46,615 nucleotides of DNA from an uncultured Mucilaginibacter sp. Its GTDB lineage: Bacteria > Bacteroidota > Bacteroidia > Sphingobacteriales > Sphingobacteriaceae. The stretch covers positions 1 through 46,615 of the forward strand of contig NZ_CALMAT010000035.1 in NCBI RefSeq assembly GCF_937859865.1, in the 5' to 3' direction. The position numbers and the translations under genes are program-made. Below, piece by piece: positions 438-15,649 of the stretch. The notes below the pieces were generated by a model. It was not told the origin of the DNA. It was given only the letters and a program-made list of their open reading frames with translations, and did no database searches. Position 1 is the stretch's first letter. Each line of letters opens with the position of its first letter.

Positions 438-1115
438 ATGAAAAAACTTCTTTTATCCCTGTTGATTGTTGGCACTTTAACGCCTTGTGTTAACGCCCAG
501 AAAAAACAAAAACGCCAACTTTTGTTTAACGGCAAAAATACCGAGGGCTGGCACACTTATTTAAAACCAACTGTTGGGGCAGCGTGGCAAGTGGTAGACG
601 GCGCACTTCAGCTTGACCCAAAAGCAGAAGGTCAGGGCGATTTGGTAACCGACCAGGAATACGAAAACTTTGAACTTTCTTTGGATTGGAAAATTGCTGA
701 AGGCGGAAACAGCGGCGTTATTTTCGATGTCCATGAAGACCCGGCTTTCCATTCCACTTATGATACCGGAATCGAGATGCAGGTTTTGGACAACATAAAT
801 GCCGACGACAATAAAAAAGACAACCATTTGGCCGGCTCATTATATGATCTGAAAGCGCCATCCCAAAACGTGGCAAAACCGGCAGGCGAGTGGAACAAGG
901 CCAAAATACGCAAACAAAACGGCCATTTAACTTTCTATTTAAACAATGTAAAGATTGTTGAAACCCAAATGGGCAGCCCGGAATGGGAAACGCTGGTAAA
1001 CAACAGCAAGTTTAAAACCTGGAAAAATTTTGCCAAGTATCCGAAAGGGCATATTGCTTTGCAAGACCACGGCGGGCAGGTGTCGTACAAAAACATCAGC
1101 ATTACAGAACTTTAA
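438..1115 (+). CDS. Secreted DUF1080 (3-keto-disaccharide hydrolase-like) protein
   Basis: A 225-residue protein with a signal peptide (about residues 1-20, ending VNA before Gln). A single DUF1080 domain fills the rest: it opens with LLFNGKNTEGW, has the central GGNSGVIFDV and TGIEMQVLDN strands, and ends with GHIALQDHGG and a KNISI tail. The fold is a concanavalin-like beta sandwich. Relatives act on 3-keto-glycosides or other sugars, usually in the periplasm, and this is inferred here from family only. It is a single-gene unit and ends before a strong hairpin shared with the convergent DUF983 gene. Confidence 0.88.
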   Translation: MKKLLLSLLIVGTLTPCVNAQKKQKRQLLFNGKNTEGWHTYLKPTVGAAWQVVDGALQLDPKAEGQGDLVTDQEYENFELSLDWKIAEGGNSGVIFDVHEDPAFHSTYDTGIEMQVLDNINADDNKKDNHLAGSLYDLKAPSQNVAKPAGEWNKAKIRKQNGHLTFYLNNVKIVETQMGSPEWETLVNNSKFKTWKNFAKYPKGHIALQDHGGQVSYKNISITEL

Positions 1116-1166
1116 AAGCTGTTTGGATGCCGGTTTTCTAAAAAAAATTCACCTTTCGCATTAATT

Positions 1167-1215
1167 TATAAAAGAAGCATCCCGAAATTTTACTTTTCGG
1201 GATGCTTCTTTTATA
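1167..1215. terminator. Hairpin terminator built from two head-to-head 12-mers
   Basis: Perfect 21-bp arms (1167-1187 and 1195-1215) with a 7-nt loop. The outer part of each arm is the iterated 12-mer (1169-1180 and 1202-1213) and the inner part adds CCCGAAA/TTTCGGG. It lies between convergent genes, so it can stop transcription from both sides. This is the arrangement in which Neisseria uptake sequences often occur. The right copy extends through the full 29-bp form to about 1230. Confidence 0.85.
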
Positions 1216-1240
1216 GGCAAAAAATTGGTGTCTTTTTGGT

Positions 1241-1663
1241 TTAATGCGGAGGCTTGTTTTGGTTTCTTTCGGCAATTGGTTTGATGTCTGGCTGGTATTT
1301 TACCTGCCTCGGCGTAAGCCAGTACAAAAGCATCACCCTGGAATACCTGAAATTAAAGGGCGACAACAAAAACGAAACCACAAAAATAACCCCAATATAC
1401 AGCCAGGGCGAATCCATGTTACCGGTGAAAGTATAAACTGCAATCACCGTTGCCACAATTTCGGCCACGTTCAACGCGTAACTGGCATACATCGAAACAT
1501 AAAAATAACCTGGTTCCTGCTCAAACAAAAAGCCGCAATAAGGGCAGGTTTCGTACATTTTTTGGATATGAAAACCATACATGCTGTGGTTAAACAAATT
1601 GCCTTTGCGGCAGCGCGGGCATTTGGCATGGAGCATCGCATTGGCTTTGGAAACTTTTTCCAT
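1241..1663 (-). CDS. DUF983 family zinc-ribbon membrane protein
   Basis: A 140-residue protein with two CxxC knuckles (CPRC at 15-18, CPYC at 40-43) that form an N-terminal zinc ribbon. Two transmembrane helices follow (about 59-80 and 87-105), and the tail is hydrophilic and basic. This is the layout of the DUF983 family, whose function is unknown. Starts at the ATG at 1663. It is convergent with the DUF1080 gene. The family is widespread in Bacteroidota, and nothing in the neighbourhood gives a more specific role. Confidence 0.85.
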   Translation of the reverse strand: MEKVSKANAMLHAKCPRCRKGNLFNHSMYGFHIQKMYETCPYCGFLFEQEPGYFYVSMYASYALNVAEIVATVIAVYTFTGNMDSPWLYIGVIFVVSFLLSPFNFRYSRVMLLYWLTPRQVKYQPDIKPIAERNQNKPPH

Positions 1664-1900
1664 CGTGTTTTTACTTAGGTCTATGTAACAGGTTGAACAG
1701 TTAATGCAATGATAGCAAGAGTTGGTTAAATTGCTTCGGTATAAAAATCTGTTTTAACACAATATTAAATTGCGCAATAAAATGTAATCATTTAATAAAT
1801 TTCTGTTGATGATTTTTACCTGCTAAAAACAGTATGCTTTAAGAACTAATGTTTCCAGATTTTTTGTCTGAGTTTTTTGTAGGAAATTCGCTGCTGACCT
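1664..1900. other. Spacer between divergent DUF983 and modE-like genes
   Basis: 237 bp, AT-rich, holding the promoters of two divergent genes. I see no iterated 12-mer, no ModE-type palindrome and no clear hairpin here. Confidence 0.5.
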
Positions 1901-2242
1901 ATGCCTCAAAAAAAACCATTAAAACTAACCGGCCGCATTTGGCTGGAAACTGAAGACGGGCCGGTTTTAGGTTCCGGCAGGGTAGAACTGCTGGAACGTA
2001 TCCAACAGTCCGGCTCGTTGCGGCAGGCGGCTTTGCAGATGAAAATGTCGTACAAACAAGCCTGGGACATGATCAAACACATGAACGAACAGTTGGGCGG
2101 GCCGGTAATTGTGGCGCAACGTGGCGGCAAAGGCGGCGGAAATACGATTGTAACGGAGAACGGGCTGAAAGCAATTGTGCTTTTTCATTCCTGCCAAAAA
2201 CTGTTTCACGATTTTTTGAAGGATAACCAGCCCAAATCCTAA
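1901..2242 (+). CDS. ModE-type winged-helix regulator, DNA-binding domain only
   Basis: A 113-residue protein matching the N-terminal LysR-like winged helix of ModE: GRIWLETEDGPVLGSGRVELLERI, then GSLRQAALQMKMSYKQAWDMI as the helix-turn-helix and a wing containing RGGKGGG. E. coli ModE has about 260 residues, because it carries a C-terminal molybdate-binding di-Mop region; this protein ends right after the HTH domain. It therefore either responds to Mo through another protein or senses it differently. The next gene is a TonB-dependent receptor preceded by a ModE-box-like palindrome, which supports a role in molybdenum homeostasis. The target is inferred, not shown. Confidence 0.85.
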   Translation: MPQKKPLKLTGRIWLETEDGPVLGSGRVELLERIQQSGSLRQAALQMKMSYKQAWDMIKHMNEQLGGPVIVAQRGGKGGGNTIVTENGLKAIVLFHSCQKLFHDFLKDNQPKS

Positions 2243-2273
2243 CCGCTTTTTTTGCTGATTTTTTTGATTCTTC

Positions 2274-2434
2274 AGAGCCTGTTTAAATTCTATCCTGAAA
2301 ATTTATAATGCTTCTTTTATGCCAATAAATTTTGTGTTTGGGTTTTATGCCAAAACAAAAATCATAAGAGAACAACAATTTTTATGTGGTAAAAGAAGCA
2401 TGGAAAATATTTGAACAATATTTAAACAGATTCT
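2274..2434. repeat. Symmetric nested-palindrome element, copy A
   Basis: 161 bp. Outer ends are AGAGCCTGTTTAAAT on the left and an inverted ATTTAAACAGATTCT on the right. 34 bp inside each end lie inverted 12-mers (2308-2319 on +, 2390-2401 on -) that enclose a 94-bp block. The element fills most of the spacer between the modE-like gene and the TonB-dependent receptor. It encodes nothing. A target duplication is not obvious. Confidence 0.8.
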
Positions 2435-2451
2435 GAAAACGATTTTGATTT

Positions 2452-2477
2452 TCGTTATGTTTACAAAAATATAACGA
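2452..2477. promoter_or_regulatory. ModE-box-like operator before the TonB-dependent receptor
   Basis: Inverted repeat TCGTTAT (2452-2458) and ATAACGA (2471-2477), separated by 12 nt and ending 6 nt before the ATG. The half-sites CGTTAT and ATAACG with 12-nt spacing equal the modA operator bound by E. coli ModE as I remember it. A -7-like TATGTTTA (2456-2463) overlaps the left half-site, so binding would probably repress. Confidence 0.65.
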
Positions 2478-2483
2478 TTGTTG

Positions 2484-5054
2484 ATGTATAAAAATTTTAC
2501 CGCTGTTGTTTTCTTTCTCGTTTCCGGGTTACCAGTTGTTGCACAGCAAAAGAAGCATGCCGAACAGAAATTGGATACGTTGCTTGATAAAACACGGGCC
2601 TTGCAGGAAGTTGTGGTTTCGGCTTCCAAAAGCAGCGAAAACATTTTGCGTTCGCCGGTCAGCATCGAAAGGGTTGATACTTCAGCTTTTAAACTTTCTG
2701 CCGCGCCTTCTTTTTTTGATGCGCTCGAAAACGTAAAAGGTGTGCAAATGATTACGCCGAGTTTGGGTTTCCGCATCATCAACACGCGCGGTTTTGCCAA
2801 TACAACCAACGTTCGGTTTACGCAATTGGTGGATGGCATAGATAATCAAGCCCCGCATATTGGTGCGCCAATCGGAAACGCGATGGGGCCAAGCGACCTG
2901 GATATTGAACATGTAGAAATTATTCCCGGCACGGCTTCTGCGCTTTACGGTTTAAACGCCATTAACGGATTGGCCAATTTCATTACTAAAAACCCGTTTA
3001 CCAGTACCGGCGTTACGGTTCAGCAAAAAACCGGCGTAAACCATTTAAACGATGCAGAAACAGGGGCGAAGCTGTTTGCAGAAACCAGTCTGCGCATCGC
3101 CGAAAAAATTTCCAACCGTTTTGCTTTTAAACTAAATGGAACTTTAACAAAAGGTTACGATTGGATTGCCGATGACCGGACGGATTTAAACGCTTCGGCC
3201 AATGTTGGCGTGGGCATTTCGGGCGGCGTTAACAATCCGGGTTACGACCCCACAAGTGGTTACGGCAATGAATCTTCTGACCGGAAAACGGTTACTTTAG
3301 GCGGAAAGCAATACGTGGTTGCCCGGACGGGTTATTACGAAAAGGAAGTTACCGATTATCACCTGCAAAACATCAAAGCGGATTTGGGTTTGGTTTACAA
3401 GCTGACCGATGAAACTGATATTACCTACACTTACCGTTTTGCCGACATTGACAATATTTACCAACGCGCCAACCGTTTTCGTTTGAAGGATTATATTTTG
3501 CAGCAACATGCGCTGGAAATCAAGAACCCGATTTTTCAGTTTCGCACTTATTTAAACACAGAAAATACAGGCAAATCGTACAACTTGCGTTCGGCAGCAG
3601 AGAATGAAGACAAAGCTTTTAAACCCGATAACAACTGGTATGCCGATTTTACAACCGGCTTTAACCGGGCAAGGGCGAACGGAACAGACGTACAACAAGC
3701 TTTAATTGCGGCCAGGCAATTTGCAGACCAAGGCCGTTTGCAACCCGGAACTGCTGCTTTTAACAACGCTTTATCTGCCTTGGCCAATGTAAACAATTGG
3801 GATATTGGTTCGGCGTTGCGGGTAAATGATCAAATGTTTCATGCAGAAGGCCAGATTGATATTTCCAAAGCTATTTCTTCGGATTTTAAAAAACAAACTG
3901 GTTTTGATTTTCTGGCCGGTTTTGATCACCGCGATTATATCATTGACCCGGATGGCAACTATTTTGTCAACCCTGACAAAAGCAAACCCAATGCTGTTTT
4001 TCCCTATGGAAGAACGGGCGGCTTTTTACAAGCAGGGAAAGATTTGTTGGACAGCAAAATCCGGCTGACGGCAACTTTGCGTGCCGACCGAAATGATTAC
4101 TTCAACCTTAAATTTAACCCGCGTTTTACGGCTGTTTTTTCTCCCATAGAAGAACAAAACTTTCGGGTTTCTTTTCAAAGCGGTTACCGTTTCCCCAGTA
4201 TTTTTGAAGCTTTTTCTAATGTAAACAGTGGCGGCGTAAAACGGATTGGCGGTTTACGGGTGATGTCGAACGGTGTTTTAGAAAATTCTTATTTAAAAAG
4301 TTCGATTGATGCTTTTCAGGCTGCCGTTAAAAATGATTTTAACCAAGGCACTGCAACCAACGCTGCTATTACAAAAGAAAAAGGTTTGCTGGTAAAAAAT
4401 TATTACGATTACATCAAACCCGAACATATTAATTCGTTTGAAATCGGCTACAAGTCTTTGTTTTTCAACCAAAAACTAAAATTAGATTTGGATTTTTACT
4501 ACAATAAATACGATAACTTCATCGCGCAGGTAGAGATGAGCACACCAAATACTTCCAACCCGGATTCTGTAGCCATCAACTTAAACGATAAAAACAAGCA
4601 GTCGCGCTACCGGGTTTGGACGAATTCGCGCAGCACGGTTTACAATTATGGCGGAAGTTTGGGTTTATCGTACCAATTTTTGCAGCAGTTTGTTTTTTCG
4701 GGAAATGCTTCTTACGCTAAATTGCAGCGAACCGATAATAACGATGGTTTGGAAGATGGTTTTAATACGCCGCAGTGGATCACCAATATTGCTTTTGGCG
4801 GAAACCATTTGTACCGAAGTTTAGGTTTCAACGTGAGTTATAAATGGCAAAGCAGTTATTATTCGCAAACATTTTTGGTGAACGGCAACGTAAAAAGTTA
4901 CGGAACGGTTGATGCACAAGTGAATTACAACATCATCAAAACCTTGAATTTGAAAATTGGTGCCAGCAATTTGTTCAACCATTATTATTACTCGTACCTC
5001 GGCGGCCCTTCCGTTGGTGGTTTGTATTATACCACGCTTACTTATCAGTTGTAA
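2484..5054 (+). CDS. TonB-dependent outer-membrane receptor, possibly for molybdenum
   Basis: 856 residues from the ATG at 2484 (an in-frame TTG at 2478 is less likely). A signal peptide ends at VVAQ. A TonB-box-like LQEVVVSAS stretch comes next, then a plug domain (about 45-170, with the IEHVEIIPGTASALYG plug signature) and a 22-strand-type barrel ending in YYTTLTYQL, with the usual terminal aromatic/Leu pattern. It has no N-terminal carboxypeptidase-like domain and no SusD partner, so it is not a SusC-type glycan importer. The ModE-like gene upstream and the ModE-box-like operator suggest a Mo, W or chelate substrate. The substrate is inference; the receptor call is secure. Confidence 0.9.
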   Translation: MYKNFTAVVFFLVSGLPVVAQQKKHAEQKLDTLLDKTRALQEVVVSASKSSENILRSPVSIERVDTSAFKLSAAPSFFDALENVKGVQMITPSLGFRIINTRGFANTTNVRFTQLVDGIDNQAPHIGAPIGNAMGPSDLDIEHVEIIPGTASALYGLNAINGLANFITKNPFTSTGVTVQQKTGVNHLNDAETGAKLFAETSLRIAEKISNRFAFKLNGTLTKGYDWIADDRTDLNASANVGVGISGGVNNPGYDPTSGYGNESSDRKTVTLGGKQYVVARTGYYEKEVTDYHLQNIKADLGLVYKLTDETDITYTYRFADIDNIYQRANRFRLKDYILQQHALEIKNPIFQFRTYLNTENTGKSYNLRSAAENEDKAFKPDNNWYADFTTGFNRARANGTDVQQALIAARQFADQGRLQPGTAAFNNALSALANVNNWDIGSALRVNDQMFHAEGQIDISKAISSDFKKQTGFDFLAGFDHRDYIIDPDGNYFVNPDKSKPNAVFPYGRTGGFLQAGKDLLDSKIRLTATLRADRNDYFNLKFNPRFTAVFSPIEEQNFRVSFQSGYRFPSIFEAFSNVNSGGVKRIGGLRVMSNGVLENSYLKSSIDAFQAAVKNDFNQGTATNAAITKEKGLLVKNYYDYIKPEHINSFEIGYKSLFFNQKLKLDLDFYYNKYDNFIAQVEMSTPNTSNPDSVAINLNDKNKQSRYRVWTNSRSTVYNYGGSLGLSYQFLQQFVFSGNASYAKLQRTDNNDGLEDGFNTPQWITNIAFGGNHLYRSLGFNVSYKWQSSYYSQTFLVNGNVKSYGTVDAQVNYNIIKTLNLKIGASNLFNHYYYSYLGGPSVGGLYYTTLTYQL

Positions 5055-5075
5055 AGCAGACTGAAAAAGTAGTGC

Positions 5076-5087
5076 TAAAAGAAGCAT
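5076..5087 (-). repeat. Iterated 12-mer, exact copy
   Basis: Lies 22 bp after the receptor stop codon, in the spacer before the convergent Fur-family gene. Confidence 0.9.
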
Positions 5088-5127
5088 CTGCTTTATTAAA
5101 ATTTTGAAATAGATAAATCAAAACCAA

Positions 5128-5553
5128 TCAGATTGCAACTGTGCATTTATCACAAATCCCTGAAGCTGATACGTTTAAACTATTTACCTTAAACCCTTTT
5201 GGTACATTAACGGTAGGAATGTGTGAATCCGGAAGGCAAAAAATATGGTTGCAAGCTGTGCAATTGAAATGGAGATGCTCGTCGTGGTGTTCATGTTTTG
5301 TACAGGAAGCAGAACATAAAGCGTAATTTGCAGTCCCATCCAAACCCAAAACTTTATGGATGATCCCTTTTTCTTCAAACGTGCTTAAAATACGGTACAA
5401 CGTAACCCGGTCAACCTGTTTGCCTATAATTTCTTCCAGTTCCGGTTGCGAAGTTGCCATTTCCCTGGATTTTAAAACAGATAAAACACTAATCCTCGGC
5501 GTTGTTTTTTTAAGCTGGTGCTTTTGCAGCAGTTCGTTAAATTCATTATTCAT
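5128..5553 (-). CDS. Fur-family metal-responsive repressor (Zur-like)
   Basis: 141 residues from the ATG at 5553 (a TTG three codons upstream is the only longer option). The winged helix covers about 10-80 (TPRISVLSVLKSR, then VDRVTLYRILSTFEEKGII). The regulatory His cluster is HEHHDEHLHF, and two structural-zinc CxxC pairs follow (CTAC near 100 and CDKC near 134). It lies 63-73 bp downstream of a MerC-domain gene in the same direction and is probably co-transcribed. That pairing and the operator before merC suggest zinc or another divalent metal. Whether it is Zur, PerR or Fur cannot be settled from the sequence. Confidence 0.88.
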   Translation of the reverse strand: MNNEFNELLQKHQLKKTTPRISVLSVLKSREMATSQPELEEIIGKQVDRVTLYRILSTFEEKGIIHKVLGLDGTANYALCSASCTKHEHHDEHLHFNCTACNHIFCLPDSHIPTVNVPKGFKVNSLNVSASGICDKCTVAI

Positions 5554-5625
5554 ATCCAACAAATCTAATACTTCTTTTACCGGTTAAAATTCATCATTGA
5601 TCAACATCAAAGTTTTGTTGGTTTT

Positions 5626-6045
5626 TCATTTTGTACGGTTTACAATTTGTGTTTTATAATGATGCTTAACAAAACACCTGCCCTTATAATTTAGGTTGAG
5701 ATAATGAGCAAAAGCGATGGACAACCCGCCGAAAGGCAAAATAAATGGTTCCAGGTTTTTGGGAAGGAACAAATGAACTACGCCAATGATGCTGAAACCG
5801 GTAGCCAGCAAAACCAACGGTAAAACGTTTTGATGAAGTTTGTAGGCAGATAAGATTGATACGCCGGCTATCAGCAGCGAAAACAAAACCATGGCTATTT
5901 CTGCCCAGCCTTTTACTAAAAACCCGATCCCAAGCAGCGGAAGCAGGGTTAACAAAACAGGAAAAAAGGCACAATGAATGGCACAAAGCACGGAAGCCGT
6001 GATCCCGACTTTATCCAAGGTTTGGTTGAATTTTAAATTTTTCAT
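5626..6045 (-). CDS. MerC-domain inner-membrane protein
   Basis: 139 residues from the ATG at 6045; a TTG at 6057 would fall inside the operator and is rejected. It has four hydrophobic helices and the MerC-type cysteine pair CAIHC at 21-25 in the first helix, followed by FFPVL. MerC proteins carry mercuric ion across the inner membrane in mer operons, but Bacteroidota MerC-domain proteins beside Fur-family genes have no mer genes and are more likely tied to zinc or general metal handling. The gene is first in a two-gene unit with the Fur-family repressor. Confidence 0.82.
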   Translation of the reverse strand: MKNLKFNQTLDKVGITASVLCAIHCAFFPVLLTLLPLLGIGFLVKGWAEIAMVLFSLLIAGVSILSAYKLHQNVLPLVLLATGFSIIGVVHLFLPKNLEPFILPFGGLSIAFAHYLNLNYKGRCFVKHHYKTQIVNRTK

Positions 6046-6074
6046 TTGCTTTTGCAACTAAGTTGCTTTTGCAA
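6046..6074. promoter_or_regulatory. Candidate Fur-family operator before merC-fur
   Basis: Two direct copies of TTGCTTTTGCAA (6046-6057 and 6063-6074). Each is a TTGC-N4-GCAA dyad, and together they form a central GCAAC-TAA-GTTGC palindrome (6054-6066). It directly abuts the merC start codon, as expected for autoregulation by the downstream repressor. The site is visible; the assignment is inferred. Confidence 0.65.
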
Positions 6075-6103
6075 ATGTAGAAAATTAAATTTAACCAGAA
6101 AAA

Positions 6104-6139
6104 ATACCGATAAAAGAAGCATGCTTCTTTTATCGGTAT
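6104..6139. repeat. Perfect 36-bp palindrome of two overlapping 12-mers
   Basis: Two exact cores in opposite orientation (6111-6122 and 6121-6132) share their AT bases, and flanking ATACCG/CGGTAT completes perfect symmetry with no loop. It lies in the spacer between the hydrolase and merC genes, both read leftwards. Confidence 0.85.
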
Positions 6140-6144
6140 AAAAA

Positions 6145-6181
6145 CATCAAAAGCTATAAAATCTACTTAAAGCTTTTGATG
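6145..6181 (-). terminator. Terminator of the dienelactone hydrolase gene
   Basis: 11-bp arms CATCAAAAGCT (6145-6155) and AGCTTTTGATG (6171-6181) with a 15-nt loop, 41 bp past the hydrolase stop. A T-rich run follows on the minus strand. Confidence 0.6.
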
Positions 6182-6221
6182 CTTCTAAACAAAAAGTTTA
6201 GGCTTGCAATGGTTGTTTTTT

Positions 6222-6989
6222 CTACAGGATTTCGTTCAAAAACAGTTTCATGTGTTCCCACGAACGTTTATCGGCCAGTTCATTATAAGCAGCGCCTTTG
6301 GCATTATCGTTTCCGGCATGTGGGTCGGTAAAAGAATGTACAGCATTGCCGTAAAAAATCATCTGCCAGTCCGCTTTGCTATCGCGCATTTCCTGCTGAA
6401 AAGCCAAAACTTCTGCCTGTGGCTCATTCGGATCGTCGGCACCATGACAAACCAAAACTTTCGGTTTGATCTGTTCTATCGGTCTGCCGGCATCTCTTCC
6501 TAATCCGCCATGAAAAGAAACCACGCCGCGGACCGGGAAATTGGAACGTGCCATTTCGAGTACACCTGTTCCGCCAAAACAAAAACCAATTGCAGCAATC
6601 CGGGAAGGATCGGCACTTGATTTTATCAATTGCTGCATGGCCAATTCAATACGGTGCTGGTAAGCTTTAAAATCTTTTTTGTAGAAGCCAGCTAATTTTC
6701 CGGCTTCAGCAGGGCTTTTTGGATAATTACCGACACCATAAATATCAGCTACAAAAGCATAATAGCCTAATTTGGCCAGTTTTTCGGCTGTTTCTTTGGC
6801 ATGTGCATCAATGCCCATCCAGGCTGGGAGAACTAAAATGCCAGCCTTTTTCTTTGTATTGTTTTCTGGACGAATGCCAAAGCCAGACAGCTTTTGGTTT
6901 CCGTCTTGATAAAATACCGGTTTTAACTGTGCATTAGCTAAAGGTAGGGCCAGCATAAATGCAAAAATAAATTGTACTATTTTTTTCAT
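6222..6989 (-). CDS. Exported dienelactone hydrolase family protein
   Basis: 255 residues with a signal peptide (1-20, LANA before Gln) and an alpha/beta-hydrolase fold of the dienelactone hydrolase family. The nucleophile is Cys137 in GFCFGG, with Asp186 in HGADDPNEP and His218 in NAVHSF completing the triad. Cys rather than Ser is typical of the family. Many members act on lactones or simple esters, and the substrate here is unknown. Start ATG at 6989; a copy of the 12-mer lies 20 bp upstream. It is a single-gene unit with its own terminator. Confidence 0.88.
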   Translation of the reverse strand: MKKIVQFIFAFMLALPLANAQLKPVFYQDGNQKLSGFGIRPENNTKKKAGILVLPAWMGIDAHAKETAEKLAKLGYYAFVADIYGVGNYPKSPAEAGKLAGFYKKDFKAYQHRIELAMQQLIKSSADPSRIAAIGFCFGGTGVLEMARSNFPVRGVVSFHGGLGRDAGRPIEQIKPKVLVCHGADDPNEPQAEVLAFQQEMRDSKADWQMIFYGNAVHSFTDPHAGNDNAKGAAYNELADKRSWEHMKLFLNEIL

Positions 6990-11960: not shown

Positions 11961-12818
11961 ATGCCCGGATCAGCCGTTACGCCACTTACCATAATTAAGG
12001 TTGATAAAAACAGTATTATCAACACCGAAGATTTTTTAGCTGCCGAAGAACCTTTAGAAATCCGCCTGGGTTACGGTACTTCTTCCCACAGAACGCAAAA
12101 AAGTATTTCGGTAACGATGCGTACACCGGGAAGTGATTTTGAATTGGCCATCGGTTTTTTGTTTACCGAAGGCATCATCGAAAACGCGGCACAAATCAGT
12201 TCCATCAAACATTGCAACGGTTTGCACGAAAACGTGGTCAAGGTTGAATTGTTGGAAGGCTTAGACTTGGACATGAGCAAACTGGAACGTAATTTTTACA
12301 CCACTTCCAGTTGCGGTGTTTGCGGGAAATCATCAATTGATGCGGTAAAAACAGTATGCCGTTTGCCAGAATTTGAATCCAAAGAAATTCGGTTTTCATC
12401 TGAAATTATTTATCAGTTGCCCGATCTGCTTCGTCAAAACCAAACGATATTTGGCAGTACCGGCGGCTTGCACGGTTGCGCTTTGTTTAATGCAGACGGA
12501 AAATTACTATTGGCCCGGGAAGATGTTGGCCGACACAATGCTTTGGATAAATTGATCGGGGCAACTTTGCAGCAAAACCTGTTTCCATTAAACCAATATT
12601 TGTTGCTATTGAGCGGAAGGGCAAGTTTTGAGCTGATCCAAAAAGCATATATGGCCGGCATCAAAGTTGTTGCGGCTGTTGGCGCGCCATCCGGTTTGGC
12701 GGTGCAAATGGCAGCCGATGCGGGTATTACGCTAATTGGTTTTTTAAGAGGGGCAAGGTTTAACATTTACTGCGGTGCAGAAAGGGTAGTTTTAAATAAA
12801 GTTGACGCGTTTGTTTGA
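11961..12818 (+). CDS. fdhD: FdhD, sulfur carrier for formate dehydrogenase maturation
   Basis: 285 residues, normal for the family. It contains EEPLEIRLGY, GSDFELAIGFLFTEGI, the sulfur-transfer cysteines C118 and C121 in SCGVCGKSS, LAREDVGRHNALDKLIG and the SGRASFELIQK / GAPSGLAVQMA nucleotide-binding region. FdhD takes sulfur from IscS and passes it to the bis-MGD molybdenum cofactor of formate dehydrogenase-type enzymes. The target enzyme is very likely the oxidoreductase 0.5 kb downstream. Confidence 0.95.
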   Translation: MPGSAVTPLTIIKVDKNSIINTEDFLAAEEPLEIRLGYGTSSHRTQKSISVTMRTPGSDFELAIGFLFTEGIIENAAQISSIKHCNGLHENVVKVELLEGLDLDMSKLERNFYTTSSCGVCGKSSIDAVKTVCRLPEFESKEIRFSSEIIYQLPDLLRQNQTIFGSTGGLHGCALFNADGKLLLAREDVGRHNALDKLIGATLQQNLFPLNQYLLLLSGRASFELIQKAYMAGIKVVAAVGAPSGLAVQMAADAGITLIGFLRGARFNIYCGAERVVLNKVDAFV

Positions 12819-13312: not shown

Positions 13313-15649
13313 ATGAAAAAAGAAATGGGGCAACCTGCTGCCGAAAACCCGGAAAAATTTGCAGGTTTAAAATTAGGCGAACCTTATAAAGTTGCAGCCG
13401 GCATCAAGGCCGTAGTGGTATCCGGAGAACATGTTTTCGGGCAGGTGCCTTTTGCCCGCGGAATGAAAGCTTTGTTTACTTTGAACCAAAAATTAGGCTA
13501 TGATTGCCCAAGCTGCGCCTGGCCCGATCCGGATGATGACCGTTCGCCCATTGCCGAATATTGCGAAAATGGTGCAAAAGCGGTTGCCGATGAAGCGATG
13601 TCAAAAAGCATCAAGCCGGCTTTTTTTGCAGAGAACGCGGTAGCAGACATAGCGAAATGGGACGATTACCACATCAACAAAAGTGGCCGCATTGCCCAAC
13701 CAATGTATTTGCCCGAAGGCGGAACGCATTACGAACCAATAACTTGGGAAAGCGCTTTCGCGAAACTTGCTTTGCACCTTAATAAATTGGAAAGCCCAAA
13801 CGAAGCTGTTTTTTATACTTCGGGCCGTACCAGCAACGAGGCGGCTTACGTTTATCAATTGTTCACCAAAGAATACGGCACCAATAATTTGCCCGATTGT
13901 TCCAATATGTGCCACGAATCTACCAGTTTTGCTTTGGCGCAAACTTTGGGCATCGGCAAAGGCTCGGTAAAACTGCACGATTTTTACGAAGCAGAAGTGA
14001 TTGTTATTCTCGGCCAAAACCCTGGCACCAATCATCCGCGGATGCTGACGGCGTTGCAAAAAGGCAAGGCAAACGGCGCAAAAATCATTTCTGTTAACCC
14101 GCTGCACGAAACCGGTTTGCTGGGTTTTAACAATCCGCAAAAAGTAAAAGGCGTTTTGGGTGTCGGCTCAAAACTAACAGATATTTTTCTACAAGTTAAA
14201 ATCAACGGCGATTTAGCTTTGGTGAAGGCTATCAATAGATTGTTGCTGGAAGAAGAAGAGGCGCATCCGGGAACTGTTTTTGACCATGATTTTATCCGCG
14301 ACCATACAGCCGGTTATTTGGATTTTATCTCCGAAGCAAAAAAATACGAATTAGATTTTCTGTCTGAAGCCTGCGGCGTTCCGTTGGATGAAATTAAAGA
14401 AGCGGCCAACCTGTTGAAGCATAAAAGCAAGATTATTGTTTGCTGGGCGATGGGTATCACACAGCATAAAAACGCGGTTGACACGATCAACGAGCTGGTT
14501 AATCTTTTGCTCATTAAAGGAAGCATTGGCAAACCCGGTGCAGGCACTTGTCCGGTCCGTGGCCATAGCAACGTACAAGGCGATCGTACGGTTGGCATTT
14601 TTGATAAACCACACGAAGCTTTGCTGGATCAGATCAAAAAAGTTTATGGTTTTGAACCGCCGCGTGAACATGGTTATGATGTGGTAAAATCCATCCAAGC
14701 CATGCACGAAGGCAAAGCAAAAGTGTTTTTTGCGATGGGCGGCAACTTTCTGTCGGCTACGCCTGATACTACTTTTACGGCCGAAGCTTTGCGCAAATGT
14801 AACCTCACCGTTCATGTTTCTACCAAACTCAACCGCAGCCATTTGGTACATGGCAAAGAAGCTTTGATTTTGCCTTGTTTGGGAAGGACGGATTTGGATA
14901 TCCACGACGGCATTACCCAATTTGTTTCCTGCGAAAACTCGACCGGTGTGGTGCAAATGTCGAAAGGTGTTTTAAAACCAGTTTCTGATGATTTGCTGAG
15001 CGAACCTGTGATTGTTTGCCGCATGGCGAAAGCAACATTGGGTAGCCGTTCTAAAATTAACTGGGACAAGTTTGAAAAAAACTACGATTACATCCGCGAC
15101 GACATCGAAAAAGTGGTGAACGGTTTTGAAGACTACAACAAACGTGTACGCCAAAAAGGCGGCTTTTATTTACCCAACGGCACACGTATCCGAGAATGGG
15201 ACACTAAAAACAGCAAAGCCAATTTCGCCGTAAGCGAGTTGGTAGTTCAAAAATTGGAAGAAGGTGAATTAATGATGATGACCATCCGCAGCCACGACCA
15301 GTTTAATACAACCATTTACGGTTTGGATGACCGCTACCGTGGTGTTTACAACGAGCGGCGCGTTATTTTTATGAACCCTGCGGATATTTTGCGTTATGGT
15401 TTTGAGATTGGCGAAGTGATTGATTTGTACAACCACCACGATGGCCGCGAGCGTGTTGCCCGTGGTTTTATCATTGTGGCTTATGATATTCCGCAGCGTT
15501 GCGTAGCTACTTATTATCCCGAAACCAATGTTTTAGTGCCGCTTAGTTGTGTGGCCGATAAAAGTAACCAGCCTTCGTCAAAGTCTGTTGCGGTGAAATT
15601 GAGAAAGAGTTCGTTGTTTGAAGAACCGATTGCTTTTAAGGTGCTATGA
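13313..15649 (+). CDS. YdeP/FdhF-type molybdopterin oxidoreductase
   Basis: 778 residues. An N-terminal iron-sulfur-like segment (C65, C68, C84 in YDCPSCAWPDPDDD ... EYC) is followed by the molybdopterin oxidoreductase core (TSGRTSNEAAYVYQLF, NMCHES, ILGQNPGTNHPRM, GTCPVRGHSNVQGDRTVG) and a molydopterin dinucleotide-binding C-terminal domain (RSHDQFNTTIYGLDDRYRG). Length and motifs match the YdeP branch of formate dehydrogenase alpha-like proteins; formate as substrate is not proven in that branch. No typical electron-transfer subunit genes lie nearby. The neighbour fdhD supports a cofactor sulfuration requirement. No 12-mer occurs in this gene. Confidence 0.9.
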   Translation: MKKEMGQPAAENPEKFAGLKLGEPYKVAAGIKAVVVSGEHVFGQVPFARGMKALFTLNQKLGYDCPSCAWPDPDDDRSPIAEYCENGAKAVADEAMSKSIKPAFFAENAVADIAKWDDYHINKSGRIAQPMYLPEGGTHYEPITWESAFAKLALHLNKLESPNEAVFYTSGRTSNEAAYVYQLFTKEYGTNNLPDCSNMCHESTSFALAQTLGIGKGSVKLHDFYEAEVIVILGQNPGTNHPRMLTALQKGKANGAKIISVNPLHETGLLGFNNPQKVKGVLGVGSKLTDIFLQVKINGDLALVKAINRLLLEEEEAHPGTVFDHDFIRDHTAGYLDFISEAKKYELDFLSEACGVPLDEIKEAANLLKHKSKIIVCWAMGITQHKNAVDTINELVNLLLIKGSIGKPGAGTCPVRGHSNVQGDRTVGIFDKPHEALLDQIKKVYGFEPPREHGYDVVKSIQAMHEGKAKVFFAMGGNFLSATPDTTFTAEALRKCNLTVHVSTKLNRSHLVHGKEALILPCLGRTDLDIHDGITQFVSCENSTGVVQMSKGVLKPVSDDLLSEPVIVCRMAKATLGSRSKINWDKFEKNYDYIRDDIEKVVNGFEDYNKRVRQKGGFYLPNGTRIREWDTKNSKANFAVSELVVQKLEEGELMMMTIRSHDQFNTTIYGLDDRYRGVYNERRVIFMNPADILRYGFEIGEVIDLYNHHDGRERVARGFIIVAYDIPQRCVATYYPETNVLVPLSCVADKSNQPSSKSVAVKLRKSSLFEEPIAFKVL

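Follow-up and report, generated by a model that had tools for sequence, protein, structure and literature searches.

Passive passage through the outer membrane is the usual assumption for molybdate. Here we describe a TonB-dependent receptor gene preceded by a putative ModE-type operator in a 46,615-nucleotide stretch of DNA (the window) from an uncultured Mucilaginibacter sp., for which one of the closest described counterparts is the ModE/modA system of Escherichia coli. The two share the operator half-sites, the 12-nt gap between them, and a homologous winged helix-turn-helix (HTH) domain, with 42% identity over 88 aligned positions. They differ in that the regulator here has no TOBE domains, its main apparent target is an outer-membrane receptor, and modABC lie on a separate contig. 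The HTH-only ModE proteins of Agrobacterium (PDB 2ijl) and Desulfovibrio (PMC545781) likewise consist of a single DNA-binding domain without molybdate-binding domains. However, the Desulfovibrio protein is associated with the motif CGGTCACG-N14-CGTGACCG before mod operons (PMC545781), whereas here the box is of the E. coli type and stands before a TonB receptor.

TonB-dependent transporters for metals include MnoT for manganese, OprC for copper, and HmuR/BhuR for zinc, of which MnoT and OprC are induced when their metal is scarce (PMC8602904). These share the TonB-receptor architecture with the protein described here but carry cations or their carriers, unlike the oxyanion-forming metal and ModE-type operator that appear to be involved in this case. 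Secreted ModA-IcmP of Pseudomonas aeruginosa also constitutes an outer-membrane route for molybdate (PMC8602904, PMC11734730), although it is not a ModE-controlled TonB receptor. In the open-access papers searched, there was no prior report of a ModE-controlled TonB receptor. Our analysis makes it probable that the two genes form a molybdenum-acquisition module, in which an HTH-only ModE-type repressor controls, through its operator, a TonB receptor that actively imports molybdenum.

A probable ModE-type operator before a receptor gene

The window corresponds to contig C35 of a 3.98-Mb genome, in a family that holds Mucilaginibacter and Pedobacter. The elements central to the analysis are as follows:

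1901..2242, forward strand: modE-like gene, 113 amino acids (aa), a winged HTH alone without TOBE molybdate-binding domains (Pfam HTH_1, 28.2 bits)
2452..2477, no strand: predicted ModE-type operator, TCGTTAT-GTTTACAAAAAT-ATAACGA, 7-bp arms and 12-nt gap, exact match and conserved
2456..2463, forward strand: possible Bacteroidota -7 promoter element (TAnnTTTG), TATGTTTA, overlapping the operator; tentative
2484..5054, forward strand: TonB-dependent outer-membrane receptor, 856 aa, plug and barrel (Pfam Plug, TonB_dep_Rec_b-barrel); proposed importer of molybdate/tungstate or a molybdenum complex

A preliminary description of this DNA had pointed to a CGTTAT-N12-ATAACG palindrome 7 nt before the receptor ATG and downstream of a ModE-like gene, and each of these statements holds. 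The core, CGTTATGTTTACAAAAATATAACG, occupies 2453-2476, with an outer T/A pair stretching the arms to 7 bp (2452-2477). The receptor ATG lies at 2484, the listed open reading frame (ORF) start at 2478 being a TTG, and the modE-like ORF, on the same strand, ends 210 nt upstream of the palindrome. The equivalence to the E. coli modA operator, also given there, was likewise borne out by the fetched MG1655 sequence: the modA promoter has CGTTATATTGTCGCCTACATAACG, identical in its 6-bp half-sites and 12-nt gap, and this is the sole match at up to two mismatches in the 4-kb mod region.

Within the window, 2.2 chance matches are expected at up to two mismatches, and only the exact site at 2453-2476 was found. 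Across the 3.98-Mb genome, the looser pattern CGNTAT-N12-ATANCG occurs twice, and perfect CGTTAT/ATAACG arms are seen only at this position. Scored with a site matrix (built as described below), the window operator reaches 32.7 bits, compared with 4.6 bits for the runner-up position in the window.

The consensus of the Bacteroidota -7 promoter element is TAnnTTTG. Matches to it at 5/6 positions or better occur in 20 of 65 operators against 9.0 expected from shuffled spacers, and perfect matches in 4 against 0.4; no conserved -33 partner was found. Scans for sigma-70 promoters and terminators gave matches no more frequent than chance, and no Rfam riboswitch was matched within 1000-6500.

Conservation of the operator across receptor loci

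To place the palindrome in a comparative context, we assembled close receptor orthologues from a sample of the family and, through an eight-sequence alignment, from named Bacteroidota genomes, giving 80 loci. Sampled genera included Pedobacter, Mucilaginibacter, Dyadobacter, Runella, Hymenobacter, Adhaeribacter, Chryseolinea, Chitinophaga, Ferruginibacter, Flavobacterium, and Chryseobacterium, together with Saprospiraceae and others. The 250 nt 5' of the receptor were scanned at gaps of 6-18 in 83 loci. This search of Bacteroidota receptors for the same palindrome, which the preliminary description had proposed, recovered an exact N12 box in 55 of the 83: 35 of the form CGNTAT-N12-ATANCG and 20, from Flavobacterium, of the form CAGTAT-N12-ATACTG. 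Variants with one or two base changes at the same spacing occur in about 10 further loci, and in L053 the box lacks one base at a contig end. Neither box type was found at gaps of 6-11 or 13-18 in any of the 83 loci. A matrix built from 39 CG-type sites has the consensus TCGTTAT-ATATTTAAATAT-ATAACGA.

A lone 12-base palindrome can arise by chance in 4 Mb and would not be decisive; the match might be fortuitous, or some unrelated factor might bind there. It is the spacing-fixed conservation in 55 of 83 orthologous loci, with none at any other spacing, that argues for a real operator and led us to reject chance. Near-complete co-occurrence with the ModE-like gene stands against the same alternative, which we regard as refuted to the extent that sequence data allow, with almost no probability left.

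By genome, and with ModE-like genes found by alignment searches, both box and gene were present in 40, neither in 14, and each alone in 1 (Fisher 3.8e-11, a value that overstates independence because the genomes are related). The exceptions are L098, a metagenome-assembled genome with the box alone, and L073, where the ModE-like gene lies elsewhere in the genome and no box was found. Given this co-occurrence, the box is most probably the operator of the ModE-like protein.

In Flavobacterium, the box shifts to CAGTAT and the recognition helix changes from MSYRQAW to MAYRQAW—a covariation that is suggestive, though not strict, because L116 combines the MSY helix with a CAGTGT-type box. A second CAGTAT-N12-ATACTG was also observed just 3' of the receptor in L092 (+2522 from the receptor start), L093 (+2588), L100 (+2626), and L114 (+2540); in three of these (L092, L100, and L114), the downstream box is followed by another large gene (~670 aa, cluster median).

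The ModE-like regulator

The 113-aa protein carries a winged HTH with a ModE recognition helix: its recognition segment reads SYKQAWDMI, against SYKSAWDAI in E. coli ModE. Profile matches include PDB 2ijl and E. coli ModE (1b9m), and the protein scores 83.3 bits against TIGR00637, under the cut-off of 98.5. It lacks the C-terminal tandem TOBE domains, and we therefore class it as ModE-like, HTH-only, with CGnTAT-N12-ATAnCG operators at its putative target genes. No TOBE domain was detected by Pfam in the protein or anywhere in its own genome. The ModE-like proteins adjoining receptors in 51 loci are likewise of the short type. A separate TOBE partner protein as a general sensor was ruled out, as just 3 of the 45 other genomes with a receptor contain a TOBE domain, or 4 when the E-value is relaxed.

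This architecture bears on the earlier statement that the receptor is under ModE control. The operator, its co-occurrence with the regulator, and the genomic context support control by a ModE-type protein; with an HTH-only regulator, an E. coli-type molybdate response is not implied. The ModE-like protein might thus bind the box without responding to molybdenum or tungsten, acting constitutively or on another signal. The scarcity of TOBE domains noted above favors this possibility, as does the Desulfovibrio HTH-only ModE, whose molybdenum-sensing mechanism is likewise 'not clear' (PMC545781). The apparent targets are molybdenum-uptake and molybdenum-cofactor genes, where control independent of molybdenum makes little sense, and we consider such a regulator rather unlikely. 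Also against it, a TOBE-less ModE-like protein of Campylobacter is reported to be molybdenum- and tungsten-responsive.

Linkage to molybdenum genes

A ModE-like gene adjoins the receptor in 51 of 81 loci, and further molybdenum genes recur nearby. Specifically, an operon-like order XdhC-MocA-MoaA-(ModE)-receptor-MoeA-TauE-MoeB-MoaE-MoaC is found in L090, L109, and L117, and L076 has an abridged form of it; the receptor neighbors in the first three include a MobA-like nucleotidyltransferase, a TauE/SafE permease, and ThiF/MoeB. Molybdenum-cofactor operons that enclose the receptor thus occur in more than one genus, several being represented. The L087 cluster comprises modA, a 134-aa TOBE protein, modB, modC (ABC ATPase), modE, and the receptor. 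Such recurrent linkage to mod, moa, moe, and modE genes is what characterizes a molybdenum-acquisition module. Cluster c24 was considered as modC, but its L045 member is a MacB-type exporter ATPase, and only L087 and L097 were used as mod genes.

The gene moeA is present in 147 of 296 genomes of an even sample of the class Bacteroidia, and in 11 of the 11 sampled genomes whose receptor scores above 750 bits (hypergeometric 3.7e-4, from counts that ignore relatedness of genomes). Among another 55 receptor genomes, 53 have it. Flavobacterium sp. LPB0248 (L115, complete chromosome) has the receptor, the ModE-like gene, and the box, and moeA was not found there; tungsten or another use, or a recent loss of moeA, are possible explanations.

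The absence of molybdate ABC genes reported in the preliminary description is true of the window; the genome, however, has modA, modB, and modC on contig C174, and moeA, moaA, and moaE are also present outside the window. Two genes within it belong to the same metabolic context:

11961..12818, forward strand: fdhD/narQ-type formate dehydrogenase accessory gene (FdhD-NarQ, 231 bits)
13313..15649, forward strand: molybdopterin oxidoreductase, 778 aa, a molybdenum-cofactor user (Molybdopterin and Molydop_binding domains)

In some loci the neighborhood points to molybdoenzymes: molybdo-hydroxylase subunit genes lie near the receptor in L054-L056, L072, and L088, and molybdo-hydroxylase or XdhC genes adjoin it in these and in L059 and L060. 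The receptor could accordingly import what molybdoenzymes act on (purines, aldehydes, N-heterocycles), or else a precursor of the cofactor, making the molybdenum link indirect. However, molybdo-hydroxylases are not beside most orthologues, whereas modE, modABC, and moa/moe genes recur, and a ModE-type operator speaks for the metal; we judge a cargo of this kind improbable.

A TauE/SafE-family permease was observed in or near the receptor/molybdenum-cofactor cluster in L062, L076, L078, L090, L095, L109, and L117, and is a candidate inner-membrane molybdate transporter.

Additional operator-like sites

The matrix also identified sites elsewhere in the same genome: one between moeA and moaA, before moaA (L126 1718-1743, 19.3 bits), and one beside modC, 30 nt before a 168-aa gene (L125 10457-10482, 15.9 bits). 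No operator-like site lies directly before modA in this genome. The moaA-side site is retained in a congener (L146). Across 1.64 Mb of locus sequence outside receptor promoters, a score above 12 bits is reached at just seven positions; four of these precede modA (L087), a molybdo-hydroxylase operon (L072), and moaA (L083, L090). The moeA regions fetched from 20 other genomes with a receptor gave two matches, one in the congener and one within coding sequence. As sites next to moeA are missing in most other genomes, the receptor appears to be the constant member of the regulon, with the wider regulon not general.

The receptor, its cargo, and related clades

The receptor falls into the 22-strand plug-in-barrel class by its Pfam domains and fold, rather than by a count of individual strands. 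Its AlphaFold2 model has a TonB-receptor fold at moderate confidence (predicted template modelling score 0.76). Residues 40-49 (LQEVVVSASK) are TonB-box-like by inspection, in a region where the model has low confidence. Assignment as a siderophore or heme receptor was rejected, all 17 NCBIfam matches falling far under their cut-offs (best, TonB-hemin, 100.5 against 316.85). Inferring the ligand from the fold was likewise abandoned, as Foldseek indicates a TonB receptor only and scores TonB receptors for many different ligands about equally.

The nearest related receptors make up a sister clade (Shimodaira-Hasegawa-like approximate likelihood ratio test support 100 in a quick tree). In two fetched genomes (L133, L135), the sister receptors lie in clusters of the order Rrf2-TauE-uroporphyrin methylase (SUMT)-sulfite reductase-receptor-Cys/Met enzyme-CysN-CysD-CysH, and two more adjoin a TauE-family gene, as some molybdenum-clade members do. 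Unlike the latter, sister-clade receptors have an N-terminal extension, an Rrf2 neighbor, and cysteine-rich short upstream ORFs, with no ModE or box. Residues that do not vary within the molybdenum clade but are changed in the sister (sulfur) clade include H125 (in the plug), N240, and R267. In several sister-clade loci (L013-L034), the short upstream ORFs end in cysteine-codon runs, CCC to CCCCC, and a TonB receptor for sulfur oxyanions may there be subject to attenuation that responds to cysteine. CTACT-n-AGTAG-type motifs were also noted with these receptors. Members of a third related clade (L138-L141, L143) were seen to adjoin major facilitator superfamily transporters and 180-aa proteins, all of one cluster, that carry a CxxC-type motif.

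The occurrence of sister-clade members in sulfate-assimilation operons suggests tetrahedral oxyanions as a theme common to the two clades. More tentatively, at somewhat less than an even chance, these receptors may represent a Bacteroidota TonB-receptor family whose ligands are tetrahedral oxyanions. One branch, for molybdate or tungstate, would be under TOBE-less ModE, and the other, for sulfate or another sulfur oxyanion, would be controlled by Rrf2 together with leader peptides rich in cysteine; TauE-type permeases accompany both in some cases. This would amount to active outer-membrane pumping of small inorganic anions.

TonB receptors usually import bulky, scarce complexes, and the cargo could by the same habit be chelated molybdenum instead of the free oxyanion, the chelator being a catecholate or another 'molybdophore' that the cell makes itself or borrows. 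The catecholate siderophore receptors PfeA and FepA are among the top Foldseek matches, but scores so alike over receptors of many ligands are uninformative on this point. No recurring metallophore synthesis genes were found among the receptor neighbors, and the sulfate-assimilation context of the sister clade also argues against a chelate, which we consider possible but on balance unlikely.

Other features of the window

A Fur-family regulator and a MerC-like membrane protein (5128-6057, reverse strand) are convergent with the receptor gene. The 12-mer TAAAAGAAGCAT occurs in 35 copies in the window (e.g., at 264, 1169, 1213, 2390, 5076, 6111, 6132, and 11157), where well under 0.1 is expected, several of them forming inverted pairs between genes. 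Genome-wide there are 2114 copies (1059/1055 by strand), with 1947 and 1118 in two congeners and 0-5 in 18 other genomes. This genus-specific, strand-balanced, ultra-abundant word resembles DNA uptake sequences.

A proposed molybdenum-acquisition module

In the module we propose, the short ModE-like protein would occupy the receptor promoter in molybdenum-replete cells and repress it, and the receptor would be made when molybdenum is scarce. TonB-driven import would then bring molybdenum into the periplasm, its likeliest form being molybdate (and/or tungstate) or else a simple complex. There, ModABC, whose genes lie elsewhere in this genome, would take over; where related operons encode a TauE-family permease, that protein may do so. 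The direction of control, repression by promoter occupation, the signal, and the identity of the substrate are the parts of this scheme that we infer.

The receptor class, the conserved operator, its apparent dependence on the ModE-like gene, the molybdenum-gene linkage, and the extra sites are read from the sequences themselves. Several observations weigh against the proposal: no operator-like site above 9 bits occurs in 18 of the 20 moeA regions; moeA is missing from two receptor genomes, one a complete chromosome (G449); the receptor occurs without box and ModE-like gene in 14 of the tested genomes; the third receptor clade has no evident oxyanion context; and the regulator and its own genome, being without TOBE, offer no known molybdate sensor to explain control. 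Nevertheless, for the earlier suggestion of an outer-membrane molybdenum or tungsten transporter under a ModE-type operator, operator conservation, co-occurrence, and context lend strong support.

Judged from these genomic patterns, many Bacteroidota probably import molybdate or a molybdenum complex actively across the outer membrane, beyond passive diffusion. If so, a receptor clade that has no annotation would gain a function, and one would have to ask by what means a ModE lacking its molybdate-binding domain detects the metal. A TonB-powered receptor under ModE-type control in several Bacteroidota families would alter the picture of passive molybdate entry.
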